DNA of 64,000 nucleotides, from positions 10,656,346-10,720,345 of the forward strand of contig JAJEKV010000020.1 of assembly GCA_021234155.1 (NCBI GenBank), read 5' to 3'. A program made the translations under genes and the position numbers. Numbering within the stretch: position 1 is the first letter of the stretch; every line of letters begins with the position of its first letter. The notes under the pieces are model-generated. The model worked only from the letters and a program-made list of their open reading frames with translations. It made no database searches and had not been told where the DNA came from. Source of the DNA: Isoetes taiwanensis. Lineage: Eukaryota > Streptophyta > Lycopodiopsida > Isoetales > Isoetaceae. This document shows, in pieces, positions 6,131 to 64,000 of this stretch.

Positions 6131-6170
6131 ATATATATATAAGACTTGTATATATATATGTAATATATAT

Positions 6171-7350: not shown

Positions 7351-7351
7351 A

Positions 7352-7892: not shown

Positions 7893-7943
7893 GAAGATTT
7901 GCAAACGTTTGTAGCTTCAATGTAGCTAGTTCAAGATTGCTAA

Positions 7944-11404: not shown

Positions 11405-11454
11405 TCAAAAGTTATGATTAAAACTGTAGTAATAAAAAATCCAAACTTTCTGAT

Positions 11455-11766
11455 GAAATATCTGACGATTTTTCTGACGAATATGTTGACGATATGTCTG
11501 ACGAAATATCTGACGATACGTCTGACGAAAACTTCTGACGCAAAAACTGACGTTTCCTATGACGATACTTCTGATGAATTGTTTCTGACGATTATCCTGA
11601 CGATACATCTGACGCAACTCCTAACGTATAATCTGACGATTAATGTGACGATTTTTCTGATGCAAAATCGTCAGAAAATGCGTCAGAGAGTTATTCGTCA
11701 GTATTTTCGTCAGTATAAACGTCAGGTCAATTTTTTTTAGACACTCTGACGATTTTTCTGACGCTT
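11455..11766. repeat. CACTA right subterminal repeat array (TGACG)
   Basis: About twenty TGACG/TGACGA motifs, mostly in the phrase TCTGACGA, spaced roughly 10-20 bases. It ends immediately inside the right terminus at 11773-11787. It is the inverted counterpart of the CGTCA array at 2785-3175. The inference is binding sites for a CACTA transposase. Confidence 0.82.
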
Positions 11767-11790
11767 AACAGTCATTCTCTTGTAGTGGTG

Positions 11791-12460
11791 GTCTTGAACT
11801 TGGCCATGGCGGAAGTGAAGGAGATGGACGGAATGAGGAAGAAGTGAAGGAGATGGCGGAATAGACGATGGGGACGGAATGAAGCTACAGGGCAGAATTT
11901 TGGGAATAAAAGGGATGTTTGCATGCATACGATTTTGTTTTGGGAATTAGGCAGAAGAGGAAAGGGATGTATCCATGCATACGATTTCATACCTCGGGAG
12001 CCGATCCACCCACCTCAATATTTTTGCAAATGTAAAATGTATAGGTTGAACCATATTATGAGACCAATTGCTTGGTATCACATAGAGTTAGCACAACCCT
12101 AACACAAAGTTAGCAATATCCCACATGCATATATCACAAAAATCGCGGGCGATATATAAATAGGGTTTTCTTTGCTTCATTGATAAGTGTGGATAGAGAT
12201 TAGATGTTGAAAAGTTATGGCTCACCGGGTTTGTAATCTTCGATTCATGAGGCCGTGTCATAATCTTGTCAAGATGTAATCCTAGTCCACCTTTTTTTAG
12301 TAATGAGCTCAAATATCCCACATGCATTCAATGTTCCACATGTTACCAAATCAACAATTGCCAAATCAACAAATGCCAAATGAATGGATTATGTTAAGGC
12401 ATATTGTGTACCTATGCATATAATTGTGTTTGGTAAAGCGTGAGTCAACAATATAGAGAT
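11791..12460. other. Right flank of the CACTA element
   Basis: A GA-rich patch (GGAAGTGAAGGAGATGG twice at about 11809 and 11840) continues the purine-rich sequence just left of the insertion at 2.6 kb. AT-rich spacer follows. No supported gene. Confidence 0.4.
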
Positions 12461-12465
12461 AACAA

Positions 12466-12757
12466 GGAATATTCCTTATTACCTTGAAAGGAATATTCCT
12501 TATTGCATTGAAAGAAATATTCCTTAGCCCTTAGTTATCGGGAATATTCCTTCCTTGTACCTTCAAAGGAATATTCTTTAGTTTGTTTAAGTGCACCCAT
12601 AGTTACAAGGAATATTCCTATTACCTTGAAAGGAATATTCCTTAGTGCCTAGTTATCAAGAATATTCCTTATTACCTTCAAAGGAATATTCTTTAGTTTG
12701 TTTAAGTGCACCCATAGTTACAAGGAATATTCCTTATTACATTGAAAGGAATATTCC
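12466..12757. repeat. Cluster of eleven GGAATATTCC palindromes
   Basis: The palindrome AAGGAATATTCCTT and close variants occur eleven times in about 290 bases, as pairs separated by ATTACCTTGA-like spacers. A longer unit, from CTTCAAAGGAATATTC through TTTAAGTGCACCCATAG to the next copy, repeats with period 115 (12561 and 12676). Each core contains GAANNTTC, which matches the inverted pentamer pair of a heat-shock element. Whether any heat-shock factor uses them is unknown. They lie about 250-540 bases upstream of the ATG at 13006. Confidence 0.9.
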
Positions 12758-13005
12758 ACATTGAGTATAGCCCTTTCATTTGAGCTAGGCTTGTGGGATA
12801 TATGCCAAAGATCAACCATTGGCCAATTGGGTGGGAAAAAAGAGGACAATGGGATAGATTTTGAGAAATGTTGAACAAATCATTGGCACAAATCATTGGT
12901 TAAGGAACAAATCATTGGCATGGTACGGCCATAATGTAAACTTGGGGAGAAGGGAATAGACAGGGATAAAAATTCCTTTTTACCCGTGGTGACCGGTTGA
13001 TTCCG

Positions 13006-14188
13006 ATGGCGGAGGAGATCGAACGACTAGATCACAATCCATATCCCCAATTCAAATGCAAACTCACCGGGCGACTGATTCTTGAGGAGATCAATGCCGA
13101 ATGGAAACCAATTGAACAAAATCAAACGGAGAGGCAAATACGAGTTCGGAGGTACTCCTATTCTTAAACATGTTTTTGTTCCTAATCTAACAATTGCTTA
13201 TGATGTTCTACACAGATGCACAGAGGAGACTTAACAATGTTGGAAGCATGGATCGAGCTATGGGAGTAGCAGCGGACAAGGGGGATGAGGAACATGGAAT
13301 AATTTAAGAGCTAAACTTAGCTATTTGGCGATCTTTTAGCACATTTTTCAAAAAAATTTGGCTAAAGTAAATGGAAAAAATTGGAAAAAAAATAATAATT
13401 TTAGCTTAACTTTTTTCGGGACTGCACCATCCCTGGAGCTCTTTAGCCAAATGCTAGAAAATAAGAGAACGAAATTTTGTATTGTTTAGCCAAACCATAT
13501 AAACTTTTAGAATGAATTTCGGGCTAGTTTAGCTAACATTATTCTAGTTTATATGAAATATATGATTACTGGTTTAGTTTCTAGCATTATGAATTAATTT
13601 GGGTCCTAGATTTGCTAATTAGCATTATTTTAGAATGTTTTCACAAAGAAAATGACTAAAATAAGTGGAAACAATTGAAAAAAAGTATGTAATTTGGCTT
13701 AATATTTTTCGTTGGCCACACCAAAGAAATTTTTGGGATGATGTTTGAGTTAGTTTAGCTTAAGGCTAGAAAGTATGAGAGGAAAAATGTGTAGTGTTTA
13801 GTTAAACCACAGAAAGTTTTGGAATTAATATCGAGCAAGTTTAGCTAAAGTCATTCTGGCTAATAAGAAATATGCGATTAGTAATTTATTCCCTGATGAG
13901 GAATCCCAATTATCTAAAGCAGAACTAGAGAGTATTCTCATTCAACTTAAACAGGAAGTTGTGCATGCAAAAGCAATCAACAAAGTGCTGAAAAGGGCTG
14001 AGGTTTGGAGGTTCAATAGCCTCAAACCATACTTTACCAATCTCTATCATAAATGGCAACAGAAGCGAGAAGCACATGTCTTGCTTCTGTTAGACTTCAT
14101 CAACTTCCAAACAGCTGTCCTGGACACTCTTCTCACAATTTTCGAAACGGGACCATTGCCGATCTCACACCGCAGACCTTACGGATGA
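13006..14188 (+). CDS. Unassigned small spliced gene (hypothetical)
   Basis: Exon 1 starts at the ATG 13006 and reads MAEEIERLDHNPYPQFKCKL then LTGRLILEEINAEWKPIEQN. A GGAG|GTACTC donor-like site is at about 13152. A CAG acceptor-like site at about 13212 precedes a short frame ending near 13304. A third coding-like block (about 13884-14188) follows an ATTAG acceptor. It is hydrophilic and helical (DEESQLSKAELESILIQLKQ, then VWRFNSLKPYFTNLYHKWQQ) and ends at the TGA at 14186-14188. The intron between blocks 2 and 3 holds a tandem duplication. I do not recognise the family and the exon joins are guesses. Confidence 0.4.
13320..13890. repeat. Diverged tandem duplication, about 295-bp period
   Basis: Two copies share ordered phrases. 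AATGGAAAAAATTGG (13370) corresponds to GTGGAAACAATTG (13663). TTTTAGCTTAACTTTTTTCG corresponds to TTGGCTTAATATTTTTCG. GTTTAGCCAAACCATA corresponds to GTTTAGTTAAACCACAGAAA. The second copy ends near 13890. Rich in TTTAGCTAA-like motifs. No coding content. Confidence 0.7.
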
Positions 14189-16189
14189 ATCTTGAGTCTT
14201 GAATCTTGAATCTTGAGACCTTCTCACTTGTTGTTTTTACAACTTACACTAAGTATAACAGTCTTGGAACTATATAAACAATATATTAATGTTTGTGTTT
14301 TAATCGGTTCACATTCTCGATACATTCGGTTTGCAAGTCCATGCCTTCCGTGCATAGAAAAGTTACTTCAACAACAAGTTAACGACACGTAGATTCTACA
14401 ATCTCTCGGCAAATTTTCCAAAGAACATTTCATGCCAATAGTTAGTCAGTTCATATGCATAAGATGTACCTTTAATCTTATGTTTGACTGGCTCCAATGG
14501 AAATCTCACACCAATTACTGACTCGGGATGGACAAGAACTTTCTTTCCTTGAATAAGCCTGTACTTTTGATGGAAACCAGGAATCAATTCAAAGTAGTTA
14601 CCAGCTATAACTTCATTACCACAATAAAATTCATTTCCATAGTCATTCTTGGTGTCTTCTTCGAGGGCATGTTTCACTTCATTACCTTGGATGAGATAAT
14701 AAGGGACCCTTTCATAATTGTGCGGGGATGTGAATGATGCAAAATAATCTCCAACCTGCCTTTGTCTCATCCACATTGTCCACGCCATTTGCCCACAAGT
14801 CCTGCTTTGCATTCCATCTTCTTCAACATTGTCCCCGTTTGTAGGCTCTAGTTTTCTCAACTCCCACCTGCACAATGATCAATTCTCACAAGCGGGCCAA
14901 TCAAAATTGATGCATGCCTTACAAAACATGAAAGAGATCTACACATTAACTTTGTTGGATCATTTGGATCTATGGATAATACGCGTGAAGAGATTGCACC
15001 CCTTTCATTTGGGGAGCACATCAAATCTTTGGGAACGGTCAATGTCGGACACCTTCCAAAATACCTTTCCACATCAGAAAATTTTCTCTTCAAGAACCTC
15101 ACATGCAGTTTCTGCATTTTTTATCACTTTCCCATCCTTTTTTCTTTGTTCTGCATCGAGCCATAGTTTGGCTATGGCTCCTTCTCCGTCATGTGTGCCC
15201 TTCCCATGTCCTGAGCCAAAGAAATTCCAGTGCATTCTGATCTTATGCTCTTGATGATACCTAGTTACATGATAGAAAGCTCTTCTAAATTGAATTGGGT
15301 GCATACCCGTCGGACCAAACTAAGTGGTATTTCATATGACCATCACCATTTTCTTTCAATAATTGAGGTGCATCTTGAATGCTTTTTGTACAAAGTGAGT
15401 ATCATGTGTTTTGTCATCTGAAATAAACAAGTGCACACATTTCCTCATTTTACCCTATACCTTGAACATCGTGATGTGGACCAATATGCTGATTTGTTCA
15501 TTGTACCAATGTTGTGCTTGAATCTCGTTGAATGGCTTCAAAGTATAATTCTCCGAGAAATCAACAACTGATAATACGGTATCATCACGAAGACTCTTCA
15601 TGGATTCCTTGAATTGTTTGCTCTGCCAATGTGCCACAAAGTTATGATATACAAACTTCGACATATGATCAAACATGTTATCCAACATATTACTGGAGCT
15701 GCCTTTCTTGTCAATTAGCTTTAGTCTTCGTGAAGTTCCTTTCTTCGAGGGCTCATTAACATAACCATAGACTTGCCAATCAAGCGTTTGATCAATCTGC
15801 TCCTTGTATTCTCTTGGACACAACTCAATTAATTGTTTCCCACAATTTCCACAATCTGATTTGATACATTGTGTAGCTTATGCCACTTTTTCCTGCTGGC
15901 GCAGTCACATACCATAGCCCTCCAAAATGTGCTAACATTATCAAATGTCTTGTCCTTGGCTTGACATATTCCAGCATGAGCTTCAGATGCGCACACACCA
16001 CAATTGCACGAACAATTGTACAGATCTGATTGCTCATGTTTCACGCAACAACATGTGTTTCTTTCCTTTAGCTTTCTAATGCAAGAAGGTTTTAAGTATT
16101 CAAATTGCCTAAGCCCAATCCGAACCTCTGGATACTGATCCACAAAATTCTGGAATAATTCAGCCTGTAAAATTACAGTGAAATAAAAT

Positions 16190-16660
16190 TAGTCACTTCA
16201 TTACATTACATTACATTACATTACATACAAATCTTTTACATATTCAAGACCCTAAACTCCCACACATACATGTACATTCTGACATGAATTTTATTTCATT
16301 TACTATGAAGTCACATAATTTTTTGACAATTAATACATCTCCACACTAATTTCTTCTTAGTTACTGCCTACATCTAATACATCCAGAATATACATGTAAA
16401 CAAATATACATCCAGAATATACATGTAAATAAATATACATGTACGTGTTGCCATGAAATAATTTGACATTTCCATGTAGAACAACTAGGGCATTTGCATC
16501 TACATTACATTCAAAAGTAAAGAAATGCGTACAAACTTTTACATCAAGGTGTTACAAAATAAAAGACATCTTTATTCTCACAAAAAAGTAAAGAAATCTA
16601 CAAAATTTACACCAAAGTGTTACAAAATAAAACATCTTTATTCTGAAAACAAGATGCAAT
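16190..16660. repeat. Short tandem repeats within the transposase introns
   Basis: A (TTACA)n microsatellite at about 16198-16225. A roughly 30-bp repeat ATACATCCAGAATATACATG at about 16378 and 16407. A roughly 70-bp diverged duplication (GTTACAAAATAAAA...CATCTTTATTCT) at about 16550 and 16620. No coding content. Confidence 0.75.
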
Positions 16661-16869
16661 TCTGACTAAATTACTGTCGTTTTACTGTAAATGTCAATAT
16701 ATTGAATTGGTTGTGTCCTCTTCTTCATGATATCTCTAATTTTTGGTGAAACCTTTGAGTTATCTAACCAAAACTGAGCAACCATATCCTTCATAGCCTG
16801 ATCTATCGTATTTGTTCTTGGATTTCGACCTGCTAATGCCCACAGATTTGTTCCACCTAGTGACAACCA

Positions 16870-19809: not shown

Positions 19810-20705
19810 CTACCCCATTCTTGCATTACCAAGGTTGCACTGGCGTAAATGAATGATAGCAAGCCCTATCCTTACGTAGCTGTTCACGGGCCTCTTTAGG
19901 GATAGCTTGGAGGATATCTCTGAAAGCTCCCCAGTATTGGTAGACTTCTCTGGCACAGTAAAGGAAACTTTCTTCTCAGTCTTCTGATATCTAGTAGAGG
20001 CGGGAGGCCCTGGACTAGGTGAGCGCCCCCTGTATGGTGTATACCCCTTGCTCTGAGTGAATGAAGAGGGTCGTGGCGGCTGGTATTTCGGGGTGTCTTC
20101 TTCTAGGCTAAGTGCTTTAGCCTCTGCTTCTACAACGGTCTTAGGGTCTATTGCCCGAACTATTTTCTTTAAGGTAGGGGATAAGCCCTCTATATACCCT
20201 TTAACTGCCCTACACTCATTTATCCCTGGGACGTATAAGCGTAACCTCATGAACTCATCCGTATAAGACTGAACGATCATATTTTTCTATTCCAGGCGGT
20301 AGAAGGTTTGGATCTGTTCGCAACGATGGGCCCTGGGCATATAATGTGAGTTGAAAGCTTTGGCAAAGACCTTATAGCGGCACCTTCCCCTCGTGAGCCC
20401 ATGGGAGCGGGCATATCCTTTCCACCAGATGTGCACTGACCCTGTAAGATTGGTGGTGGTAACTTTGCCAATATCTTTCTCAGTCATTCCGTATGACTTA
20501 CCGAATTCCTGCATTTCATCCAACCATGATTCCGCATCAACTCTGGACCTACTTTTCCCTGAAAATTGTGCCAATTTCCGGTTCTTCCAAATGCTAGTGA
20601 TGGCCGAATCGCGGGTGGTGGCGGTTGCGGATTCTGTGGAGCAGGAATCTCTGGTCCATACTCGTGTGGCATTTGAGGTGGGTTAGCGCATAATATATCT
20701 GCCAA
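19810..20705 (-). pseudogene. Ty3/gypsy-type retrotransposon gag remnant
   Basis: Minus-strand pieces give a Retrotrans_gag-like domain. The first, about 20705-20484, is a Pro-rich N-terminus. The second (20574-20287) contains AESWLDEMQEFGKSYGMTE and then WWKGYARS and FNSHYMPRAHRCEQIQTF. The third (20280-19810) has YTDEFMRLRLYVPGINECRA and VKGYIEGLSPTLKKIV, then a basic Ser/Pro-rich segment before the zinc-knuckle position. At least two frameshifts separate them and no protease, reverse transcriptase or integrase follows, nor do I see LTRs. A gag-only relic. Confidence 0.8.
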
Positions 20706-44600: not shown

Positions 44601-44985
44601 TTAATCTTCTTTCTTTGCTTCTCGGTGCCTTTCCTTCCAACAAGACTTTCAAGAGGCATTACTTCCTAAGGTACATCCTATTGTATCTGAGAAGCAAAGG
44701 GCTTGTTTAGTAGCAGAGATTATGGTGAATGATCTAGCAGATGCTACCTTTCTTTTGAAGAGAGGAAAGTGTCCTGGAATTGACGGTATTCTTATGGAGT
44801 TCTTTCAGGAGTTCTGGGATTGGGTTCGTGTTGATGTGTACGATGCCTTTCTAGATTTCAAGCAGCGGAGGCGTCTAGACAAAATTATCAACTTGGGATG
44901 CATTTTTCTTATTCCCAAGTGCAAGGAGCCTTTATCAATTTCAGATTGGTGCCCAATTACCTTGCTATCTTCTGTGTATGTCTTC
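41640..44985 (+). pseudogene. L1-type LINE (ORF1 with DUF4283-like domain, endonuclease, partial reverse transcriptase), 3'-truncated
   Basis: A second LINE type, not GC-rich. ORF1: 42514-43191 contains PCWFALEDFPIELPVPEF and IAIHSGLGLHLA, resembling the DUF4283-like region of plant L1 ORF1, then a Pro/Ser-rich tail. ORF2: MKLVSWNVRGVASCSTKRS begins at 43448 and stops after about 38 codons. The endonuclease continues in pieces with WLLVGDFNMDELEADR (43851-43898) and RSYTWCNGWLG. The reverse transcriptase starts with KCPGIDGILMEFFQEFW (about 44768-44818) and IINLGCIFLIPK to ITLLSSVY (about 44980), then ends abruptly where the minus-strand hAT gene begins. The catalytic YADD part is absent. Confidence 0.85.
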
Positions 44986-44989
44986 ATGT

Positions 44990-46542
44990 TCAGGACCATC
45001 TCTAAAGAGAGGGTTTAGGAAATACCCGACTCTATGTAAAGGTGAGTGAAGCATTGTCGACCTTGCTTGCAATCCCTCGTGCTCATCTTGTATACGATTT
45101 ATGATGGACTGAATTCTAGAATAAGGCACCTTATCTTTTATACCATTGAGAACCTCAATCAAGTGACGCATGCACTCATAGATCAAACCCATAGTTGAGC
45201 TTTCCCTATCCGCTAGTCTCAAAACTTTCAACAAAGGGGTGAGCACATAAACAATCTCCTTGACTTGGATAAAGAAATCAATGCTTCTAATCAATGCATA
45301 AACTTCCTTACCATTGGGTCTTTTTGAGTGCTTCCAAACACTCCACTCGTCGTTCATGATCATGCTCACTAATGCTTTCTCAATTTCCTCACTTGCCAAT
45401 TTCTCCAAAACTATGAACAAGTATGAGAATCTAGTAGCTACTAGTTTCAACAAGGATCTCTTGCGGAACTTATGCCATAAAGAAATGTCGCTCTCCTTGC
45501 ACATGAGAAATGTCACAATCTTCTTTGCACCATTCACCACAGGAAGAACCCAATCCAATCGGCCTATATCTTCAAAGCGAAGATCTAAGCAATGGTATGC
45601 ACAACGTGTATAAAAGATAGATGGAAACTCCAATTCTAGCATCTCACCGGCTCTTACACAATTTGAACTATTATCAATAACCTGCACAATGTTCTCTTTC
45701 CTAACTATGTCAATATTAACCTTTTTGAACTCATCAAACAAAAAGATAGCATCTTTTTTCTTGCCGCTTGCATCAATAGATTTCAAAAACATGGAATCAA
45801 AACAATTCGAGGCCACAAAATTAATAATGGGTCTCTTCCTTACATCAGACCACCCATCTGAATAAATTGAAACTCCATACCTCTTCCATGTATTCTTCAC
45901 AGGCTGCAATCTTTGTTCCACAGAATTGTATTCTGCTTGTAAGTGTTTTTCCTTCAAATCACCGAAGCTTAATGGTTTGTATCCTGGACCAGCTTTAGCC
46001 ACCGCAGTACAGTACTTCTTGAAGAGTTTACTTTGTGCAATATTGTAAGCAATTCCACAGCCATAGAACAACCTGCGTTGTGCTTCATCTGTGTGTGCCT
46101 AAAAAGTTTTTGGATGGAGGATCCACTCCCAACATTATCCTCTTGGCGCTCTTGCGTGAAATATTGTTATCATAAACTGAAGATAAAGAGAGTCCACCTA
46201 TAGGAAGAGAAAGACAATTACAAAAAGAATAATTAACAAACATTAATTATGAAAGGGAAAAGTTATCTTACCGGCACTTTCTATAGAAGCAATACCCCCT
46301 AAGGCTAAGGATTCTTGCAGGAGTTCTTGTATGCAAATCCTAGCATCATCTGGATTGAATTGGGGATCAATCTCCTTGGCCTTTTTTACGGCCCTTGCCT
46401 CTTCCTTCTTTTCAATATCATTAAAGACATGGCTAGGTGCTCTTGGACACTTTTCTACACCAACTCCTTTCTTACCAATAATATGAGCACGAATCATATC
46501 AGCTCCACCAGTCCATGAATGGCCACAATACTTGCATTTCAC
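44990..46542 (-). pseudogene. hAT-type transposase, C-terminally truncated
   Basis: Minus-strand gene. The N-terminal exon (46542-46243) carries a BED-type zinc finger: CKYCGHSWTGGADMIRAH with a downstream His/Cys pair. After an intron and a short exon (about 46200-46105, NNISRKSAKRIMLGVDPPSK) comes the long block to 44990. It has a DUF659-like region (SDGWSDVRKRPIINF, IVQVIDNSSNCVRAGEM, CAYHCLDLRFEDIG) and the start of the catalytic C-terminal half. A one-base shift separates the second and third blocks near 46100. The hATC dimerisation domain is missing: the frame runs into LINE sequence at about 44990. No terminal repeats identified. Confidence 0.85.
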
Positions 46543-49639: not shown

Positions 49640-50690
49640 GAGAATTTCAAGCACAGCTAATTTGCTCAAGCACAAATAGTTTCACCTACTTCTTGAGCCC
49701 AAGATACATGAGGTCACATGATACATATATCCATACAAATTATGCATTATACTTGTACGTGTACATGATACTTGTACACGCTCAATAATGGCGCTACAAT
49801 GTACACCTCCTCGTCCAGAGCACATCCAAACCATCAAGTGCTCCATGAGCTACAATGATCTTTTGCGTGAGAAAGGGTGTCAAACTTGATCCCTATCTGC
49901 AATCCAAAGCTAATGGTCCTGAGATTCGTTGCCTCGGGCTAATTCGTGTTGTGATCCATCTTATTTGGATTCCTGAGCGCGAGATCTATGAGCTGAATGC
50001 CATTACCTCAGCAGGTGTTGATGATGAGTGAATCAGTTATGATTTGTGCACCTGTTAAGGATATAATGATATAAACACTTCTGAAATATGTAAGGATGTA
50101 TAAGCATAGTGAATATTATTTGATGTATCGAACCTGAGTAATTTGTAAGGTTGTGCTCGTCGACCTCCACTTTTTCTGCAAGCAGTCCCTAATTTCAAGC
50201 ACACCTAATTTACTCAAGCACAAAGACTTTTACCTACTCAAGTCCAAGATATATGATTACGCATGATACATATGTCCATACAAATTATGCGTTGTACTTA
50301 TAAGTGTACATGATACTTGTACGTGCTCAATAATGGTGGCACAATGCACATCAATAATTCACATCAATAATTTTACTTGACTATAAAAGCAGCTCCATTC
50401 GTTAGTAGAGATCATTCATCTCCAATGGATTATTCGCCTACTCTTGTGCACCACATCGAGGCGATCAAGTGCTCAATGAGCTACAATGATCTTGTCGGTT
50501 GCCAAATAAGGGATATTCTTCTAGATCCCTACCTGCAATCCAAAGCTAATGGTGCAAAGATTCGTTGCCCCAGGCCAACTCGTGTTATGATCCATCTTAT
50601 TTGGCTTCCTGAGCGCAATAGCTATGAGATATCAGGGATCACCTTAGCAGGTGTTGAGGATGAGTGAATCAGAATTTCAGCAATATATAA
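49640..50690 (+). repeat. Tandem duplicate units each ending in the same short open frame
   Basis: Two units of about 550 bases. Both start TTTCAAGCACA-CTAATTT (49647, 50192), pass through ACATGATACTTGTA-CGCTCAATAATGG, and end in a frame reading YLQSKANG...RV.IHLIW.PER...GV.DE before TGAATCAG. The second copy has an open frame at 50377-50667 (96 codons, MTIKAAPFVSRDHSSPMDYS...) including IRDILLDPYLQSKANGAKIR; the first (49793-50032) has a frameshift. The protein is not recognised. Between the units sits the 124-bp inverted repeat arm. Confidence 0.75.
50057..50180. repeat. Left arm of a 124-bp inverted repeat bracketing 50-64 kb
   Basis: Aligns without gaps to the reverse complement of 63877-64000 with 5 mismatches in 124 bases. 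The inner boundary of similarity is sharp (50181 versus 63876). The outer boundary cannot be seen because the right copy runs off the window. Confidence 0.92.
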
Positions 50691-51806: not shown

Positions 51807-54800
51807 TTAATCTGAAAAATGCAGAGAGTAATAAAAAATAACTATTTTAATGTACCTTGAAGACTCAAGTTTCATCTTCGTCCTCTGAGGCCTCTTTGGC
51901 AAGTAACTTTGTAATTGAGCCGCTACACTCGCAGGTATCACTACCATCTGAGGCTTGTCCTTGACTGACCAACCATAATCTATGGTTTTGAGATGTTGAT
52001 AACGCGGCCTGTCGTTCAGATTTGGCCTCCACCTTTTATGCCAGCAGTCCCTATACTGTTGTTCATAAGAGGTACCTTTTCTTGCTATCGGCTTCCACCA
52101 AGACACGAACAACACCTCTTAAGTGTGGGGAAGAGTTGGGTCTTTGCCTGAGGCTCCTCTTCAGCAAAAGGCCATCCATCACGAAGATGAGTCTCCTGGT
52201 CTAATGAGCAAGAGCATACCCTTCTTGACATCTTGGTAGGGATCGAATGTTTCAACTGGGTTTTGTGGTTTATCCTTTGCAGGGCCGACATAGTGCGGAC
52301 GTGTTATGTACTCGTCGAGCATTACTGACTCAGGCTCCATTAGCACGGACTGTGTAGTGAGAGGCCAGAAGTCTTTAATTTCCTGGGTTCCAGGTGGGAC
52401 CTGTCCAAGTGCATGCATCAGAGTCGACCAGTAGTCAATAACCTCATTCATGTAGGCATTAGACCATGAGTTTACACCACCATGAGATATGTTTGCCCAA
52501 TGCATCATGTACTTTGCAATGGACGAGCGTAAGGCACCCATATCTTTGAGGCTATCATATGGCTTCACAGCCTTAGGTGTTATTGGCATACCATCTGCAT
52601 CTGCCTTCCACATTCTTATTCCATTCTCAGGGAGCCATTCTCGATGCCCTGGCCTCATCTTGTAATATATAAGTGGCCATCCATCTTTCATGACAAATTT
52701 GAAGAGCAGGGGCTCCAGGTGCCCAACCAAGCAATCCTTCTTGTCTGGAATCTATCCTTTCACAAATGACTTCCAATCAGAAACTTCAGTGACTAGGTAC
52801 GGCGTCGGTGCTTTGGTACTACACTCTCGAAATAACTGCATGAGTTCAGGAATGGTGAGTGCATCTGACCTGCGCAATAATGTTGAGTAATTCCCGAACA
52901 ATGCATCAATGTCATCATGGGTATGGCCGACCATCATAAATCCAAGCTGTATCTGATAAAAAACCCCCAGCCATACAAGATAAGAAAGGTAGGAAAAGAG
53001 ATATCTGTTCTTGTTCTGGCCAAAGCAATTGTCCAGTTGTAAATATAGCCTTCTAGATAGATGTTTGGGGTGAACTGGAGCACTAGGAGGGGCCATAAAT
53101 TCTTGTCCAGTGCTACTGACCTTTTTAGTCCTAAATGCCATAGTGTTGAGGACTGCTGCTCCCCATGCACAATCAGGGCGCTCAACTTCTCTTAAATGGC
53201 CCCAGTTGTCTCTCGAAGCATCCTCCAGGGTTTTAAGCGTGTGGTTCAAGGACCCAATATGAAAATTAAAATCATCCTTCCACAAATCTAGTGAAAAATG
53301 GCCCAGAGCCCCAATACCATGGCCATGCATCAATGCACCTGTCACACTTACTTTCAAGTGTTCTCCTCTACACACTCATTTGGCTAACTTCTCAAATCTA
53401 GGTACCATTGTCTTGTTCTGATCCATCTTGTCATGAATGATTGTCAGAGCTTGCTCAGGAGCACGATGTGATAAAGCTCTCCACGACCAATACAGGCTCC
53501 TACAAGAAATCTGTGTTGTCATGTGTGCCTTCCTTTCGATCTGCAATTCTCTTCTCTCTATTGGATCTCTTGTCTTAGCCATTTTCTCTTTTATTACAAT
53601 ACAGCTATTGCACTTGGAGAAAGCTATCCTCTTCGCAATTGCAACCTCTGGGTGATGTAACTTCCATCCCCCTAAGAATGATGATTGGGAGATGTGCTTG
53701 CATGTCATCTCCACTACACTGGCATCCACCTCGTGGAGAATGTTCTTCTTTGTTAGGACAGAAGGGAGCCTCTTCACATTCGCTCTCACACCTTCATTAG
53801 AGATTTTTGACCTATGGGGCATCGTCTTTGCATTCTCATCTATGTACATAGACAGTAGGGCATTTCATGCTAGAGTGTGCGACCTTGGTTTCTTTGAGCC
53901 CGTATTACCATGTTCAAACCCTATGACCAGCAAGGAAAAGTTTACGCCACTTATAGAAAGTTGACATTGGAATGCTGCAAGCTTTGTGCCATGCTTTCAA
54001 GCATACTTGCTTGTTATTCAGCATCACCTTCCGGACTTGCCCATTTTCTGAGCAAAGGTCAAGCATGTTATAAGCAAAGGTGGTCCTGCCCGATGCACTT
54101 ATGTTCCAAAAGAAACTTCGCATGCATTTGATCTCACAGATGGAGAAAAGGGCACAGCATCTGCGAATGCAGCAAATCGTGGACTTGAAGTCTAGAATAG
54201 AGGCCGCAGTGATTTTCTTATCAACCTTGCATGGGGTAGCAGGTGTTCGTGGTGTTCGATTTACCATTCTATAAGACCTCTTTCGAGTCTTAGGAACTTC
54301 CGCTTGCATTGCATATGGTTCTGCTTCGATATTCTGTTCTTTCACAGCCTTTATGAAAGTCGATACTGGGATATTGTCAACTAGCACGAAGGCATTGGAC
54401 CACCTCACCAGATCGTGCAGTTGCGGCATTTCAGCACAAGCTTGGCATCTCATAGACGACTTCTCTGGCATGGGGCATATCTTCATCACGGTGGCAGCCA
54501 GGAAGTCTTCCCCTAACCTTATGTCGCCAACTACCTGGTTAGGATAAGTGAAAATGATCATCCCGTGTGCATATGGCATGTAGTAGCAGTCATGCATCAG
54601 CATGCAGTTCCTCTTCACCAACTCATCTCTTGAAATGCCTCTATTAGAACAGGTTTGCTTGACGGAACTTTCCTCGTCTTCGACTACCTGCCAGTTAATT
54701 TTTTTTAATTGCGCTGGCGGAGTCAATATGTCACCTTCTGATGCGAGGGACGCTATAGAATTAACAGGCCATACAATGAAACTCCCGAGAGAATCTCCGA

Positions 54801-54975
54801 GTTTTGAAATCTCCACTTCTGGATATGGCAAGGGTATGTTGCCATCCAAAATCTTATCCATAGACACTACCATGGTGTCCCCCCGCAAGGGCAAGTTGTG
54901 ATGTTTGTTGAAGTCATGTACTTTGCCCTCGCCAACTTTGACACCGTTGGATAATATAGATCTTGCCTCAGTCAT
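51807..54975 (-). pseudogene. DDE-type transposase gene with DNxxxQNKN and GHTHDDID motifs, decayed
   Basis: Minus-strand gene in consecutive blocks. 54975-53914: N-terminal region with LPLRGDTMVVSMDKILDG and KLGDSLGSFIVWP, resembling a domain of plant transposon proteins, then CLKAWHKACSIPMSTFYKWR (helix-turn-helix-like). 53849-53376: AFSKCNSCIVIKEKMAKTRD and IIHDKMDQNKTMVPR. 53375-52752: LYLQLDNCFGQNKN and FMMVGHTHDDIDALFG, the strongest catalytic-type signature. 52730-51812: C-terminus with WANISHGGVNSW and QYRDCWHKRWRP. The family is one found in oomycetes, animals and plants (possibly Pfam DUF7869). In-frame stops lie at 53376-53378 and near 52750, with shifts near 53905 and 52120-52190, so this copy is not functional. 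Confidence 0.75.
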
Positions 54976-56650
54976 CTTGAACTGACAGGGCCGACATTGC
55001 TACTAGAAATTGCGGTGGCGATAATGCGTAGTACTAAATGCTTTTATGAGGGAGGATGTTGAATAGCAAGAAAAACCAGAGCTGTTGAAGATCGCGCCCG
55101 CGATCTAGCTGAGGACTCCCGGGCTTTTACAAGTAGGGTCCAATGCTGAGACACGATTGCTCGAATGCCAAAGCACGTTTGCTAGAATGCTGAGATATGC
55201 CTGTTTTTAGCTGATGAAGATCGCTGTCGCGATCTAATTAAGGACCTACAGATTTGTCCACACAACGGACATTAAATTAGTTAGTTTGCTACGACGTGTG
55301 AATAAAGACATGTGAAGCAATTTCTGTAGAATTATGGTTTTTGGAAGCAATTGATGATTTGATTGGTACACCAGGTTGATGTTTATGTTCTGAAATTCAT
55401 TTCAGACTCACTCAAGAAGTATTTAGTATAAAAACGTGTAACTACTACTGCTCTCTAACTTGTTCATTAGATATAATGATGTTAAAATGATATAAAGAAG
55501 TTATATAGATGTTTTAGTAGTATGACTTGCCTGTTTACACTCTTCACATTGTCGAAAACTTTCGCAGATGTCGCAGCAGTCGAAACTCAAGTAAAATCTT
55601 TATAAATATTCTAGATCGCCTTCCCTGTGCGGTTGAGCGCCTCAAATCCCAGCAATTTAAAACGATCGGCTTCGAAGAAATATTCAGCGCCTCAACAGCC
55701 TCCTCCTCGAGTCCAATTCAAATGAATGGCTAATGTGCCTGTGTAGCTGGGTCAAATGTTTTTGAATTTCAAATGCAGGTAGTTTCGGCAGGGCATTTCA
55801 GTTCCGTATTGTTACTCTGATATTCCTAATTAAACTCGCGTGCCATGAGTATTATGTTTTCCTGCAAAATGTCCGATGCCGTATTGTGAGTGTCACTATC
55901 TCATTTAAAATGGCATGCCTCAACTAGTCAGATCTCCCTCCCCTGTCACATGGTATAGAATTTTGAACTCGGTGCGTGGACGTTCGTATACAGAATAAAA
56001 GTTTGAAATACGGCCTTTTTAAGAATATTCTTGAACCGCTGCCAGAATTTATTTCACCAGCTTTATTTAATTCGCCCGCGAAAATTACTGCGACCGTCGA
56101 AAATCAATTTTATGGCAGTCATTATGGCGGGCTATTAATGACCCCCATTCCATAAATTAAGGAAAATTCCAGATTACGGCCACTTCGCGAACCTTTTCAA
56201 GAGCGCCATAAAAAAATTTCGAGCGCCTTCGACCACCGCCATGTCTCGATCAGCCGCCCTAAAAGAAGGTATTTTCCGCGCTTTTCAAGACCACTGCTAT
56301 CGTTCTAGCATTACTTGTCCTGTTTTTAGCATTGTATATGCTCGAAAGGATCGCGACCGCGATCTTCACGAGCAATATTTCTATATTTTCACAGTCTTAA
56401 TGCCCGTGAGAATCGCGATCGCGATTCCTTTCACCAGTATGTATAGTATAGTCTGGTTGGATTGCTCAAAACTATCGCGGGCGCGATCCTATTGAGCACT
56501 TTTTCTTTTTATCATATCTTTGGTCGCTCATAAGGATGTGATCCGCGTTCCTTGTGACCTCTGGCTGTTAGCAATGTTTTTAGAAGCTTGGCAAAGATTT
56601 TCGGCATGTTCCAACGAGTTATTTTCAAAGTCGACTTCTCATCACTTTCA
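54976..56650. other. Spacer holding the 16-bp palindrome family
   Basis: Between the minus-strand transposase and the plus-strand gene fragments. No supported gene; the short frames at 55527 and 56241 overlap palindromes and AT-rich sequence. This is the natural place for divergent promoters of the two genes, but no core promoter can be identified. Confidence 0.5.
55090..56488. repeat. Five 16-bp palindromes of the form GATCGCG-NN-CGCGATC
   Basis: Copies at 55090-55105, 55219-55234, 56349-56364, 56411-56426 and 56473-56488. The first two sit in a diverged direct repeat (TGAAGATCGC...GCGATCTA-x-T-x-AGGAC). The motif is notable because the surrounding DNA is AT-rich and such CpG-dense palindromes are otherwise rare in the window. 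Confidence 0.88.
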
Positions 56651-57050
56651 TTTTGCTAGCATCAGGTCCTCGAGGCATTCGAATGCCCAACGCCGAACCC
56701 CATTTTTGTAACTCCGATAGAAGTCGAAAGTGGTGCATGGAAATAGATCAAACCAAACCACATGTTGCAGGAGATCGACGAAAGGACTTATGTCTGTTCT
56801 TGAGGAACAGAAAGGGGCCAGAAGACTTTGAACAGATGGGCATAATAATTACTATGTGCGAAGGCACCAAAAATAACGTTCAGGATGCAATCATATGCAC
56901 GGCGTGAAGGATACACAAACAACATCCTACGGTTTGTGGAATATGTTTTGCGTTGGCAAAACTATGATCCATCTATCATGACCGTAAGCAAAGCGAATAA
57001 GCCTGCTAGTGGGAAGGGGGTACCTACTAGTGCCAAAGGATATGGCTAGA
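56651..57050 (+). pseudogene. Second copy of the N-terminal domain of the ParB-methyltransferase protein
   Basis: Frame 56653-56907 includes KWCMEIDQTKPHVAGDRRKD, LCLFLRNRKGPEDFEQMGI and NNVQDAI. This parallels the gene at 59861 (WCMEIGNIHPGSQTNHLKDL, LLYFGEKGTRKMHSAGI, NDEFQIDVEHTI). A second frame from 56889 continues REGYTNNILRFVEYVLRWQN and ends at a stop near 57049. The match is by eye and moderate in identity, but the order of WCMEI, KDL, G-I and the charged Asn segment agrees. No ParB or methyltransferase part follows. Confidence 0.5.
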
Positions 57051-57059
57051 ACTTGCTAT

Positions 57060-59800
57060 CTTATGATTCTTTGAGCCTTATCTTGTGGATAAAGTGCAAT
57101 AGTGATATACTTGTTGGCTTCAAAGATGTGTAGGAAGGGCCTTTATAGGCGATAAAAACCTCCATCCATTGCATTGAAGGCTAAAAAGGACAACAAGATG
57201 CCTTTCGGGATGGACCGCATGCCGTTGCGGGCAAGGTTGCCAAGAAAGGCCTTGATCCCTTCCTCCACACAGCCATCGACTCCAAAAGAATCCTTAAGGT
57301 CATCTCCGTACGGAGCACAACTCCTACAAATCCGTTCATTTCAGGAAGTTGTCAACCACACAAAAGTTTTGTTACGTTACAAAATATGCTTATGCCACTG
57401 AGTAAGGGATTCCCATACACATAGGGGACCTCTTCCCAAGAAGATAAGTACCTTCAAAATTAAACTTGAAATTTAAACGAAGAGACAAGGCTTGGATTTA
57501 CCTCATCTACTCCCACCTCCTCTACCAATCCTATAGCTGTATACTTCCTTGTTAACTTGGCCATCCCTTATCAATTATGCCATATGAATTAAAATTCAAT
57601 CCGGATGAAGAAAAAGAAGTTAAAGGGGGAGCAGGGCACGGAAGGTCAAGCTAGAGGAATTTAAAAGATTTTATCCTATGGGAGTGAATTGGTTTCAAAA
57701 GATCGGCATTTTTTATTGTGAGACAACCCTGCTAATCTAACTCATAGGGTTCGATCTACAATTGACCATGTTATGTAAACATTCAATCGGGGAGTTTCAA
57801 GAGATGCCCAACAAAGGTTCTCCGCGCTTTGCCGATGTTATGCCATTTGACCCGGTGTCAAGGTAAGGTTCATTGCATTTTTTCCTCTCATTAAGTGCCG
57901 CCCAATTTACAATGCCTATTGATTGATGGGACATTAATGGGGAAATTGATCACTTGGTCTCCGTCTGGGGAGACTCTTGAACAAAAATTCTATATTATTT
58001 CGTTTTGAAATCATAGTATTTTTTCCTTGACAAATTCTATGCTCTATGATGGGAAAAACAAGCAACGGCTTGAATTTGCCAAAGCTTATACAAAACGGAG
58101 AAGTCGGGTTTTAAATGGAAACCTATCCAATAAAAAGCATAATTTCATTAATTATGGACAATACACGAATTTATGGACCATTTTTAATACACTTGTATGA
58201 ATGACTCTTTTTTCATACACTAATTGACATCCTCGGAAGTCTTGCATATGCCTCCAATTACCACCCGTTCTTCTTAATTACCATTAGGTAATGTTTTTCT
58301 TGTTTTATGTCCCAAGGCATGATTCGATAGTCTCTAGTTCTATGAAGTCACTTGCGGTCGTTGGCCTCCATCTCTTGTCCGACCAATTGGCATAATTATC
58401 CTTTCAGACTTCATGGCAATTAGACATCGAGATTGGCTCCCACCAAGTCACCGAGAATAAACCTTTGGAGTTCTCCTTCTTGATTATCCATTTGAAGATG
58501 GTTTCGGTCGAAGATAACAACCTAGCCAAGAACCTCTTGCTAGAAAATCATGAAGGTTTGATAAACATTTAAAACCCAAATTCCTCCGTTCTTTGAATGT
58601 AATTTTTTTCCCCTATTTTCAAAGTTAAATGTAAGCCCCTCATTTCAAAGGAAAATGTCAGCCCCAACTTTTTAAACATATATTCCCTTCATGGTGCCGC
58701 ATGATTAAAATTAAAATTCCATGGGCCTTAAAGGAATTGGGCCTTCCAACTCTCGGATATTAATACTTTGAGATCCCGGAGACCAAGGTACCACCCTCTG
58801 CAAACCCTAGATTCCCTTTTAACACTAGTCGTGCCACTCTTATAGGCCTTTCATGTTGTTGCCGAACATGTCATAAACAAAAAGTAACCCTATCACTAGA
58901 TTTCATGGCAAGGAATTCCTTTTAGCATGTTAACAACTTGATTGGTGAGAACTTGGCTTAACACCTATTTTTGCATCCACAAGGTCCTCCCCTATCATCG
59001 AGGATAGCATTCCCAATGGTGAGACGAACAAGTTTTGGTGGCCTTACAACCTTCCCGGGCTATCTGAAAAGTGTATGTCGTTTCTCATAATTTGGGTGCT
59101 TCTAATGCTATAAGAACTGAACCCTGCGGACACTATATCTTTCTGTTGTGGTGTCTGCGCCCAATATCTCTCGAGACCTTCATTCCGCCAACACTTAAGG
59201 GTCATTGTTCCATCTCTCACGAAGTCCCCGTTTGGCCATATCAAAACATCCCCGGCAACCCATGTTCACTTTGAGGACCCGGTTGTGGCTACTCCCACAA
59301 ACTTAAAACCCCCACCGGTCACCTCTTTCCATCATCAAGGCCGCTGAATGATATGAATCCTTTTTCCGCAATAATGGAGTGCACAAGAGTGCCATATGTC
59401 ACAATCCATTTCAAATAAGGGGTATATCTTGTCGGGGTTGTGCCTCCTTTCCCACCTCATGGGCCATTGTCAAATTCTGGGGACGTCATTTTGCTAGGAC
59501 GACTCACGAGCATCTTCACTTTTCAGAACAAAATGAGCCCCGGCTTAATTTATTGTGTTTGCATCTGAGTTCGGCCAAGGAAGGGGTATGGTGGCCTTCG
59601 ATCCTTCCCAATATACCAACGCTCACTACTCCATGTTGATTCCTTGAAGTGGCATTGTGTCAAATTTGCCCCACAACTCCTTTTGCATCCATCCATTTCA
59701 TTAAGGAAGAGATACACAACTAGAATAAGGGTTTTAATAGTTTTAAACCATGGCCGAGGAAGACGAGAAAGCAATGCAAAAAACATAGGGGGATGCTAGA
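57060..59800. other. Gene-poor stretch between the two N-terminal-domain copies
   Basis: No convincing frame or repeat. Short open frames (57174-57401, 59379-59639) have no domain and typical noncoding composition. No transposon ends were recognised inside it. Confidence 0.4.
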
Positions 59801-59860: not shown

Positions 59861-62800
59861 ATGGCGCAAACAAAGCAGACTGCTCAAGTTTGTGGGCCCG
59901 CACCGAGATTTGCAGAAGCTATAGCCGAAGCAAGAACGGAAGAAGACAAAGAACTGTTTGCTGGCATCACTGCAGTGCCCCATGAAGTTTTGACGGTTGC
60001 TGCAGCATGGACCTGGTGCATGGAGATAGGGAACATTCACCCTGGGTCCCAGACGAACCACCTCAAGGACCTTTTGCTTTATTTTGGCGAGAAAGGGACA
60101 CGGAAAATGCACTCAGCGGGTATCCTCATCGACATGGAGGTCTCACCTGATAACAATGATGAATTCCAGATCGATGTCGAACACACCATAGATCGGGCTT
60201 TCGTCCGTTATAAGCTTCCCCTTTCTGGCTACGAGCCCTGTATGATGCAGGCAAGCATAACTGAAAGCCCACAATCTTGCGCTCATAGAGGATGGGTGCT
60301 AGACTCATATGAAAGTTTAGAGCGCTCGGGCATCAAATCAAGAACTGATATCATGGATGGCTTCTACGCTGTCCGGCAGTGGATATTTGAACACAAACAG
60401 AATAGGTCTAAAGCATTGTATATGGAGTATCAAGGCAAAAACCAACCCAAAATCTACGATACTAAGTGGCTTAGGTCTAGATATGGAGTTCCAAAGAAGA
60501 GCGAGATAGCACAAGCGCCCGTGGAGACGCCGACAATTGCAAAGAAGGCTAGGACACCTGCCACGGCTATTCCCAGTAAAGCTGCCCCTAAACTTTTATT
60601 GGGTGGAATGTCGAGGACATGAAGGTCGCCTGAGGTCAGTGCAGAAGAGAAACAATCGTCTGAAGAGGAAGCCGGTAAGCGCAGAGGACAACTTGTAGCT
60701 GGTCCGTCCTCCAAGAGACACAAGCGGGACATCTCACTTGGGAGCCCACATGCTTCGGAGAGGGAGTCTTTGTCTGCTTCTTCAACTGAAGAACGGGAGA
60801 CTAGCCGGCAGATCGTAAAAGTCACTCCATCTAGTGGCGACGTCACATAGGAGAGCAGACATGAGTTGTCCTAGAGTGCCATTGTCAACATCAAGCACAG
60901 GGAGAGAATTTACCCTCTGGGGGTGGGCTTCGAGATTGAAATCGATATGTTCAAGATGCACAAAGCCCCTGCAAATATGACATGTAGGGTCATAAGTCCA
61001 GAGCACTTGGATACTCTGTATGAATCATTTATCAGCCATCAGATGCACCCTCCCTGTGCTGATGTCATACCATTTGATCCACAGACAAGACGAGCAATTA
61101 AGTGGAAGAAGGCACGGCCCTGCAAAATGCAGAATTTTGGATTGTCAATGGCAACCATACGATGACGGTTGCTCAACTGCTTGTCACACAAGCTTTGGCA
61201 TGGCCTCCTGAAAGAAGACTATACACGAAGAAGTATTCTTTGAAGAAATTCAGCAGTTCAAAACCAGTGGGCATTCTACGGGAAGCCTCAGAAGGGAAAA
61301 CACGGCCAGTCCCTGGGTGGAGATTATTCTGTGAGTGCTCTCAACCATTTTTTTTGATACTTCGTGCTATCTTGTAGTGCCAAATTGGGCACCCGCCCAA
61401 TTTGAGACATTGAGACACTGAACTCAAATTGGGCGGGTGCCCAATTTGCCTGAATGAGTGCCAAATTGGGCGGGCGCCCAGTTTGCCTCAAAGAGTTACA
61501 AAATTGGGCGCCCGCCGAATTTGGCAAATTGAGCGCCCGCCGAATTTGGCTAATGTGTATGGGCCTTATCTAATGCATTCTGTGTACTGTAGGATTGGGT
61601 GACTGTGGCGCTGTAGACATTGAAAAAGACAATTATGCGGGACTACGACTACTTTGTTTATCTGGATGACGAAACGTGGTCCATGTGCAGTGAAGTCGCC
61701 CAGTTATTTTACGAAGATCATTTGAAGGATGAGAAGGGAGAAAAAATTGAAGTGAAAGATAGACTGAGACTTTTCACCAACAATTCCTGTCGCCCATTGA
61801 AGTCCATGCATCCTCTAGATCTGCAAAGGCTGATGAAGGAGATCAAGAATGGCTCCACATTCCTCAAAGGAAGCAAAGATTATGGAAGACGTACCATGAA
61901 AGTCAGGGCCCTTGAGCTGAAGAAGATTGGAACAATGGAGCGGGCGCTTGTCAGATACCTGAAGGAAGTGAAAAAACTACCATTTCAAGACATGGCTGCC
62001 TTGAGGCAAGCTCACCCCATATTCACAGAGAATTTAATGCTTATGTTCGCCAGCAGTATTAGTGGATGGGCAGAAGGCCGCAAAGAGATCGAGAAGGAAA
62101 GCTTTTCGGAGTCCCTCTACGGCAAAGTAGACGAATATCTTCTTGGGCAAGTTGAGGAGGGGGGCAAACCGTTCAAGTGTTTCCACGTGAGTCCATTAGG
62201 TTTGTGCGTAGACGTGGTGAACACTTCTGCCCGCTTCGTTGGTTGCGACTTCAGATATACAAAGAAATGGGCAATGGAAGATTATCAAAAATTCCTTGAC
62301 CAGCTTAGCACGATGACGGACCAACAGCTTTACTGGATAGCTATATTTATTACGCCGAACCGCCTCAATGAGTGCCTATCCGCCATGAAGACAATAGACA
62401 GTGGCAGCCGTGTTTGGGTTGGTTCCTACCAGGACCCCCCTGCCAAAAGTGCTTCTACCTCTAAAGTGCGAGAGTTGCAAAGTCTTGTCTTGCTAATGTA
62501 TGTTGCCAGAGATGCTGCGGCTCTGCCATCTCTAGATGAATTAAATATTTGCTTTGCCAATTCCGACCATCCTAAGCAATATGCTAAATTTTCCAAGCAT
62601 TTGCGAGAAAAACAGGACATCGAAAAGAATTTGCCTGATCATGAGTGTGCAGCAGGTATGCATTTCAAATTGGGCGCCCGCCGAATTTCGTTGTAGACTG
62701 TGAATGTTTCTAACATTTGTTTTCCCTGCAGCTTATTGGCTATATCGTCCCTGGTGCGATAAGGGTGCAGCAGGTGGGGGAGGAGTTCTCGTCCAGAATC

Positions 62801-63578
62801 AGTTGGATTGTAGGACGTGCACATCTAATACAGAAGTTGATATTAGAAGGTTGCACTATTCTCGACTTCTTTTCTGGTGGTGCTTTTAGCCGGGCTGCAT
62901 TGTGTAAGGGCTATAAATCATTGTCGTTTGAGACAGAAGAGAAGCTGGAAACTAAGCTTGTAGATATTCGAGCAACTCGACGTCATGTTAGACGAGAAAA
63001 AATCAAGAGCTCGAGCATTACAAAAGATCAAAGAAGGAAAGAAGAAGGCCTCCACTTCCAAAAATATTCCTTAGCCTCAGCTTCCTGTTCCTGAGACACC
63101 TTGTCCGTTCTCCTCTACAACCATAAATGAAGTGCAATCCATTTTGAGATAGGACAAGAGCTCGATTCAAGAAGAGCTCAAAAAAGCAGCGGCCCTTGGC
63201 TCTCAGGATTTGCAAGTTTTTAGGAGAAGAAAAGATACCATCAACGCATTGGCAGGGACCGCACTGGTGAATACTCAGGACATGATTGAGGGGACCACAA
63301 GGTTCGAAAAACAGGTTGCTAGGGATCCTGAGTCTGTGATCGTCATGGAAACTCAGGAAGGGGCTGAAAAGGTCCCCAACACATTGGACAATCAAGATGG
63401 AGAGGAAGAGGTCCAGAACACATTAGACAATCAGGCTGCAGATGAGGAGAATGAGGAACTGGGGTCTGAAGATTTCGTGCTGAGGATGGAAAAAATCAAG
63501 GAGGCAGCACAACAACCTCCGCCCCAGTCTGAAGAACTCAGAGAGGAGCATTCAGAAGAGGTGCCTCCAGACGCATGA
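59861..63578 (+). pseudogene. ParB-like plus DNA-methyltransferase-like protein of a mobile element
   Basis: Start chosen at ATG 59861 (MAQTKQTAQVCGPAPRF). One frame runs to 61165 with three in-frame stops (60620, 60848, 60872): an unknown N-terminal domain, a charged linker, then YPLGVGFEIEIDMFK and RVISPEHLDTLYESF. After a shift near 61110 comes AEFWIVNGNHTMTVAQLL, matching the G-x-H-x core of ParB/sulfiredoxin-like domains. An intron (about 61331-61616) precedes a 359-codon exon ending at about 62656. A second intron (about 62657-62732) precedes ILDFFSGGAFSRAAL, resembling methyltransferase motif I, with the tail KLILEG before it. The order fits beta-class N6A/N4C enzymes, but the DPPY motif expected near 62215-62240 reads VNTSARF. 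An acidic C-terminus ends at 63578. ParB-methylase fusions are known in bacteria and phages; a plant-transposon role is inferred. Confidence 0.62.
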
Positions 63579-63832
63579 GGGACTTGTGATTACAACCATG
63601 AACAGATTGGAAAACATTGTAATTATTTTTTTTCTAATGAATGATAATTTTTCCTTCAGTTCCTTGTCTTAAAGTTTTCTAGTTTCCTTTGCTACCCAAA
63701 TTGGGCGGACGCCCAATTATGGTTACCGTAGAAGATAGAACCTATAATTAAATTTATTTAACACCCAATCTACTTGCTGTGAACTTGAGACCTTCATTGT
63801 CCTCTGGCGGAAATTGGGCGGGCGCCCAATTT
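61382..63832. repeat. Eight copies of a 22-bp palindrome (AAATTGGGC, core of four, GCCCAATTT)
   Basis: Copies at 61382-61403, 61426-61447, 61463-61484, 61501-61522, 61526-61547 (all in the first intron of the ParB-methyltransferase gene), 62667-62688 (second intron), 63698-63719 and 63811-63832 (downstream of the stop). Most are perfect or have one or two changes (GCCGAATTT in three). I found none elsewhere in the window. The intron-and-flank distribution avoids coding exons. Function unknown; candidate protein-binding sites. Confidence 0.92.
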
Positions 63833-63876: not shown

Positions 63877-64000
63877 TGCAGAAAAAGTGGAGGTCGAAGA
63901 GCACAACGTTACAAATTACTCAGGTTCGATACATCAAATAATATTCACTATGCGTATACATCCTTACATATTTCAGAAATGCTTATATCATTATATCCTT
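63877..64000. repeat. Right arm of the 124-bp inverted repeat (runs off the window)
   Basis: Reverse complement of 50057-50180 with 119 of 124 identical. It begins just after the last 22-bp palindrome and continues to the last base of the window, so the true length may be larger. Confidence 0.92.

Follow-up and report, generated by a model that had tools for sequence, protein, structure and literature searches.

Structure of the gene and of its element

The gene analysed here lies on the plus strand at 59861-63578 of a 64,000-nt stretch of Isoetes taiwanensis DNA (contig JAJEKV010000020.1; the whole stretch is called the window), and it is conserved as an accessory gene in a family of plant DNA transposons that measure about 11.3 kb and are defined by a DUF7869 transposase. 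The gene exists, but its copy in the window is broken and is nested, with its own element (element 2), in another element of the same kind (element 1). A preliminary description of this locus, made from the sequence and its open reading frames, had reported a fusion of a ParB-like and a methyltransferase-like domain beside a DDE transposase and inside an inverted repeat; its observation was partly confirmed and its interpretation partly supported, as detailed below.

The open stretches from which that description started (59861-61330, 61617-62656 and 62733-63020, plus strand) are present at their positions in the window, and its plant-style introns have GT..AG borders, with splice sites set by comparison with other copies. 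Exon 1 (59861-61330), which is broken in the window copy, covers an N-terminal domain, a Ser/Lys-rich linker and a ParB-resembling core; intron 1 occupies 61331-61592. Exon 2 (61593-62655, the former 61617-62656) covers a helical middle region and the first half of the methyltransferase-like domain, and is separated by intron 2 (62656-62731) from exon 3 and the C-terminal tail (62732-63578), which carry methyltransferase motif I (TILDFFSGGAFSRAAL..). The motifs AEFWIVNGNHTMTVAQLL and DFFSGG are both present. Exon 2 (359 codons) is the longest open frame of the region and exceeds the maximum of 268 codons among 500 first-order Markov shuffles of 59861-63580. The window copy is damaged in several ways: its frame changes near 61105 and again in exon 3, the sequence is scrambled past about 61210, and stops interrupt the frame at 60620, 60848, 60872 and about 61614. 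In the exon 3 region the open frame runs as far as 63578. The relatives found in this genome keep the segments in one order, so they form one gene, and the reading of them as unrelated adjacent genes, which the preliminary description had named as an outcome that would refute it, was dropped. The product was estimated at roughly 1,200 residues in relatives, as pieced together from several copies.

Direct searches with the window gene gave little. Pfam returned two chance-level matches on the gene pieces (E 0.036 and 0.064) and none on the joined pieces at E up to 10. In a further Pfam search, weak matches to AIMP2_LysRS_bd, bPH_9 and Saf4_Yju2 were taken as noise. Protein database searches with the window gene gave no match at E up to 1e-3 and none at E up to 10, the PDB sequences no relevant match, PHROGs one match at motif I to a family of unknown function (E 0.022), NCBIfam one weak irrelevant match, the viral contigs nothing useful, and the phage search two matches with E 8. 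The single-sequence fold of exon 2, the only fold made, had a predicted confidence (pLDDT) of 37 and was not used.

The element was delimited by the comparison of two 29-kb contexts that were picked by their gene, here called elements A (loci L039, L026 and L040) and B (L041, L030 and L042). Similarity between them starts and stops sharply and gives an element of about 11.3 kb (5557-16823 of its context in A), the ends of which are inverted copies of GCACAGTTTCATTA(A/T)(A/T)TATGGAC. AGTC stands on both sides of A (4 bp) and CCTAA on both sides of B (5 bp), where one or two bases per end of these target duplications can be counted either way. Between the terminal inverted repeats (TIRs) of both elements, the minus strand encodes a DUF7869 transposase and the plus strand the gene, the two standing head to head; DUF7869 was recognized by Pfam in A (E 8.9e-41), and the same motif was found by eye in B. 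A and B thus have the transposase between TIRs and the target duplication of a DUF7869 transposon, and the earlier proposal that a transposon carries the gene held for these two fully bounded elements. The same layout (transposase minus, gene plus) recurs in L043, L044 and L046, which were picked by their transposase. L043-L046 carry the transposase of the other subfamily (that of element 1) together with a relative of the gene, of which L045 has only a piece within the stretch fetched; their transposase DNA is 91-94% alike to that of the window in L043-L045 and 70% in L046. Among the matches listed for gene and transposase, only the window pair lay within 10 kb, as judged by eye. The DUF7869 transposase as a chance neighbour was rejected, as A and B carry a transposase of the other subfamily than the window's beside the gene.

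Copies in the genome and selection on exon 2

The genome assembly searched, from which the window itself comes, comprised 1,658,258,908 bases in 1,110 contigs. It contains at least 150 DYW-deaminase domains, a domain type that is expanded in land plants, which agrees with a land plant as host. The search for paralogues, which the preliminary description had proposed, gave at least 125 matches of exon 2 (117 of 2591 first-look candidates were scored, and a few copies are matched in two separate pieces), grouping roughly at about 90%, about 70% and below 60% identity. Many copies are broken, that of the window included. The ratio of non-synonymous to synonymous substitution rates (dN/dS) of exon 2 was 0.092-0.185 in four close copy pairs among 11 pairs chosen by hand; in the seven distant pairs dS was saturated, and the proportion of non-synonymous differences (pN) was 0.14-0.30. 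These values show that exon 2 is under selection.

Palindrome arrays

The non-coding parts of the elements hold arrays of short palindromes, which are of two types. The type II palindrome is 22 bp long (AAATTGGGCGNNCGCCCAATTT). With up to 3 mismatches, eight copies lie in the introns and the 3' flank of the window gene, namely five in intron 1 (61382, 61426, 61463, 61501 and 61526), one in intron 2 (62667) and two 3' of the gene (63698-63832), and none occurred in any of 100 shuffles. Genome-wide, 5,256 sites (up to 1 mismatch) were found, vs 0 for the reversed pattern. The 20 gene loci (178,520 bases) contain 205 sites, at least 3 per locus, where the genome-wide density predicts 0.57. With up to 2 mismatches allowed, element A has 26 sites and element B has 27, all inside the element and none in the flanks; they cluster upstream of the transposase, upstream of the gene, in intron 1 and downstream of the gene. 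Among 268 type II sites the commonest base reaches 84-99% inside the palindrome, the two centre bases apart, and 26-60% outside it; the sites were selected by their match to the palindrome, so the flanks alone are informative here, and the likeness among sites ends at the palindrome edge.

The type I palindrome (GATCGCGNNCGCGATC) has 6 matches in the window (shuffle mean 0.44, with 6 reached in 0 of 100 shuffles), five of which lie between the two genes of element 1 at 55090, 55219, 56349, 56411 and 56473 (0-2 mismatches). Its exact sites number 836 genome-wide, vs 1 for the reversed pattern, and among the 11 transposases listed on contigs up to C513, 6 have at least one such site in the 8 kb of their 5' flank (chance 0.004 each). 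In L046, the locus with the 70% alike transposase, type I sites are kept before both genes and in the intron.

Within the 27 loci counted the two types stay apart: 24 subfamily II loci (the 20 gene loci and 4 flanks) have 219 type II and 0 type I sites, 3 subfamily I loci have 8 type I and 0 type II sites, and the window itself holds both types, one per nested element. The palindrome arrays differ between the two subfamilies, at equivalent places. Array periods also differ within one element (about 52, 69 and 72 bp in elements A and B), which suggests repeated independent tandem growth around a fixed 22-bp core. The palindromes within the introns at 61331-61592 and 62656-62731 could form hairpins in unspliced RNA.

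The methyltransferase-like and ParB-resembling parts of the product

The C-terminal domain was compared with a profile of 101 ParB-methyltransferases, 96 from a database search seeded with L003 and 5 from phage records. Motif I of the window exon 3 scored 15.5 bits and that of L044 14.8 bits, with 0 of 2000 shuffles as good in either case; for 21 family sequences against the ParB-methyltransferases, hhalign gave a probability of 94.9% (E 4e-8, 0 of 80 column shuffles). L044 also matched Pfam N6_N4_Mtase (PF01555) over the last quarter of the profile with E 0.0092, below the curated cut-off. Motif I of the beta-class N6/N4 DNA methyltransferases (PF01555), on the S-adenosylmethionine (SAM)-binding side, was accordingly recognized at the C-terminal end. 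Full-length profiles led no further: that of 6 phage proteins matched at motif I only (P 0.019) and that of the 101 proteins ranked 5 of 1864 scored (of 3001), again at motif I only; for that of 5 proteins the rank was 48 among 887 scored (of 2001), and the match lay outside motif I. The family profile gave no match on the joined L034 protein, in which exon 3 is out of frame. A score of 2.8 bits for the exon 3 piece against the ParB part, which 22 of 2000 shuffles also reached, was taken as noise. The motif I comparisons support a methyltransferase-derived C-terminal domain that has kept the SAM-side motif I.

The catalytic motif IV, (D/N/S)PP(Y/F/W), was not found at its likely position. The presumed position reads mostly VDVVNTSARFVG or near it (NTSAR) in subfamily II, where a few rows differ and none has DPPY, and IFIDMRS or IFIDIRG in subfamily I; the catalytic DPPY thus seems to be lost. 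The earlier designation as a 'modification-type' protein is doubtful, because the likely DPPY position mostly reads NTSAR, DMRS or DIRG.

The ParB-resembling stretch reads RVISAEHVDTLYESFI..QMHPPCADVVPFDP..FWIVNGNHTTAVAQIL. FWIVNGNHTTAVAQIL or a sequence near it occurs in most rows, and FYIISGNHSIFAAQIL in L043; both resemble the box II-like DGHNR, with the Arg absent. ParB was recognized in no search of Pfam (the check that had been proposed for it, run on the gene pieces), NCBIfam, PHROGs or PDB sequences, and no profile-level similarity of the core to the ParB/sulfiredoxin superfamily was found. A ParB domain is not supported by these tests, and the likeness stays at the level of motifs. 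As to the fusion claimed in the preliminary description, the methyltransferase half stood in the profile tests of motif I, and the ParB half was reduced to a resemblance of motifs.

Nested elements and repeats in the window

In the bounded elements A and B a transposase of this kind from the element itself does accompany the gene, but the transposase beside the gene in the window is that of element 1. It lies at 52179-54999 on the minus strand (open pieces 52179-52751, 52752-53375, 53376-53864 and 53914-54999), has at least 150 relatives in the genome and contains the sole clear domain found near the gene (Pfam DUF7869, E 5e-40, at 52755-53375). The second gene of element 1 is a diverged, broken relative of the accessory gene on the plus strand at 56731-58141 (tblastn 37% over 49 amino acids, E 0.005, with further pieces collinear), which ends where element 2 begins. 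Copies of element 1 align from about 52151 and stop at 58141 or 58144 (two alignments, 57186-58141 and 56904-58144). A left TIR-like end of element 2 is found on the plus strand at 58137-58161, differing from the family end in 3 of 25 bases, and scraps of the transposase region of element 2 itself follow on the minus strand at 58324-58397 and 58765-58942 (blastn to element A 78% and 73%, respectively). From the stop of the alignments, the family-like end and the transposase scraps taken together, the accessory gene of element 1 appears to be interrupted by an insertion of element 2, which carries the gene described here. A right end of element 2 was looked for up to 64154 and not found.

The inverted repeat (50057-50180 and 63877-64000, 124 bp) is real, but it is not the terminal repeat of the transposon. 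The tandem unit at 49643-50180 recurs in inverted orientation from 63877 onward, and this copy runs on beyond the window through the part that corresponds to 49643-50036, as read by eye; the repeat was therefore rejected as a transposon end. The tandem units, of about 0.4-0.5 kb, lie at 49643-50672 and have a short conserved frame, read by eye as LDPYLQSKANG..IRC..; their inverted copy lies beyond the nested elements, at 63877-64000 and for at least 154 bases past the window.

Three further features were recorded in the window. A protein on the minus strand at 44968-46098 contains DUF659 (E 3e-41), a domain of hAT-like transposases. An open frame on the plus strand at 7944-8498 has an Ssu72-like start (E 1.6e-21) followed by PPR-like (pentatricopeptide repeat-like) repeats, seen by eye. 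A weak Ty3 capsid-like match on the minus strand at 19813-20286 (E 0.00048, below the cut-off) is probably a remnant of a long terminal repeat retrotransposon.

Relation to known systems

The closest described counterpart is the accessory protein of Sola1-1_Ec32, a giant DNA transposon of the brown alga Ectocarpus. According to the available part of that account (PMC12477816), the protein has 1104 amino acids with ParB-like and DNA methyltransferase parts and is encoded on the strand opposite the transposase, proteins of this type from green and red algae are cited, and the algal transposon ParB-methyltransferases are suggested to bind and modify their own sequence. As in Sola1-1_Ec32, a large multi-domain protein is encoded opposite the transposase strand in A and B. 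The present case differs in the land plant host, the DUF7869 transposase and the element length of 11.3 kb, and further in domains too diverged for the Pfam cut-offs, in the apparent loss of DPPY and in the candidate target arrays. Within the portions available, ParB-methyltransferase genes are already known from algal transposons and the palindrome arrays are new here; the string 'palindrom' occurs nowhere in the Sola1-1_Ec32 paper (PMC12477816).

VANC of the Arabidopsis VANDAL elements, in the available part of its description (PMC5735166), induces the loss of DNA methylation and binds a short motif, which stands in tandem arrays upstream and in the introns of the element that encodes VANC; the motifs differ between related families. 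The present gene likewise encodes an accessory protein of an element with motif arrays in its own non-coding DNA, which differ between related families. In the VANC case binding and methylation loss were shown, whereas the present case is known from sequence alone; the two were set side by side by description, and no Pfam family passed the cut-off in the present gene.

Bacterial and phage ParB-methyltransferases (such as L002, L003 and L004; Bce_0392, PMC5512222), as far as their available records go, have the same order, with a ParB-like part followed by a methyltransferase and motif I near the C-terminus, and the motif I profile match is shared. They have about 400 residues, an intact DPPY and, in some of the matches listed, Pfam ParB_N, whereas the present gene is about three times longer, intron-bearing and diverged. 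With ParB-parS systems the present case shares a ParB-resembling core and clustered palindromes near the gene, and it differs in the lack of a ParB profile match and in its setting (a ParA partner was not sought). Among the top-ranked open-licence PMC papers listed, no such protein in land plants and no palindrome targets were found, and DUF7869 occurs in none of the open-licence papers searched.

Proposed function and alternatives

We propose, with a probability of about 0.6, that the accessory protein binds the palindromes of its own subfamily and acts on its own element, probably for anti-silencing or autoregulation. Self-recognition via palindromes is suggested by their association with the subfamilies. 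The protein would bind the sites before both genes, in the introns and downstream, and binding confined to its own palindromes would restrict the effect to its own element. As in the case of VANC, the most likely outcome would be that silencing is lifted specifically from its own element or that its own transcription is controlled, and ParB-like spreading from clustered sites may be a way to cover the whole element. Methylation of the DNA of the element by the protein is less likely. An elaborated form of this proposal, which we regard as unlikely, is a eukaryotic counterpart of ParB-parS, in which a ParB-derived protein would load at its own clustered palindromes and spread, a dead methyltransferase domain would serve as a SAM-sensing or base-flipping DNA reader, the silencing machinery of the plant would be excluded from its own element alone, and protein and palindrome would co-evolve without cross-reaction with the sister family.

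Several points weigh against binding of the palindromes by the accessory protein and against the origin given here to its domains. The palindromes could be bound by the transposase or by a host factor. No exact type I site is nearby for 5 of the 11 transposases, L044 has neither palindrome type at the thresholds applied, the comparison covered two palindrome types only, with few type I loci (4), and the arrays within one locus partly reflect tandem duplication. For 25 of 28 loci exon 2 is stop-free in its best match, but this is a count from a biased sample, as these loci were picked partly for open frames. For the ParB part, 803 of 2000 shuffles scored as well against the profile; one hhalign comparison gave 0.4%, there aligned on the motif, and a second gave 0.8%, with the best alignment off the motif and 11 of 59 shuffles as good. 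The motif IV region did not beat shuffles either (134 of 2000 as good; hhalign 20 of 60), and motif IV was located by eye, so that the loss of DPPY rests on that placement.

If the palindromes were binding sites of the transposase, the gene product would do something unrelated, such as aiding excision or protecting the ends. From one subfamily to the other the transposase changes along with the palindrome, and transposases of other elements bind repeated short motifs. In element A, however, the sites span 8773-15750, which leaves over 3 kb free at the left end and about 1 kb at the right, unlike subterminal sites, and they flank and interrupt the accessory gene rather than the ends; we consider this alternative doubtful. 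If the protein were an active ParB-methyltransferase, placing N6-methyladenine or N4-methylcytosine marks on its own transposon in the way that the accounts available suggest for the algal relatives, this would agree with the conserved motif I and its match to ParB-methyltransferases, with the match to N6_N4_Mtase, below the cut-off, in one copy and with the algal precedent itself. This alternative is quite unlikely with the likely DPPY position mostly reading NTSAR (subfamily II), DMRS or DIRG (subfamily I), and self-modification in this lineage would be made less likely by a dead methyltransferase domain. That the gene is a passively captured fragment of a host or bacterial gene, with the palindromes as an unrelated satellite or miniature inverted-repeat transposable element, would fit the many broken copies, the window's included, but is highly improbable: gene and transposase are paired in the five loci examined for pairing, the palindrome type follows the gene subfamily, and passive capture is contradicted by the low dN/dS between close copies, on which ground it was dropped.

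The algal accounts, in their available portions, suggest binding of the own element but name no target. Here the two subfamilies give two different candidate targets of 16 to 22 bp, each inside its own element, so that two proteins and two oligonucleotides would suffice to test self-recognition. If the proposed self-recognition by the accessory protein is true, a pair of orthogonal protein-site systems would be supplied, a DNA-binding and modification protein of bacterial type would have become a chromatin factor specific to its element, and the strategy of VANC would have evolved at least twice in plants, from seemingly unrelated proteins.

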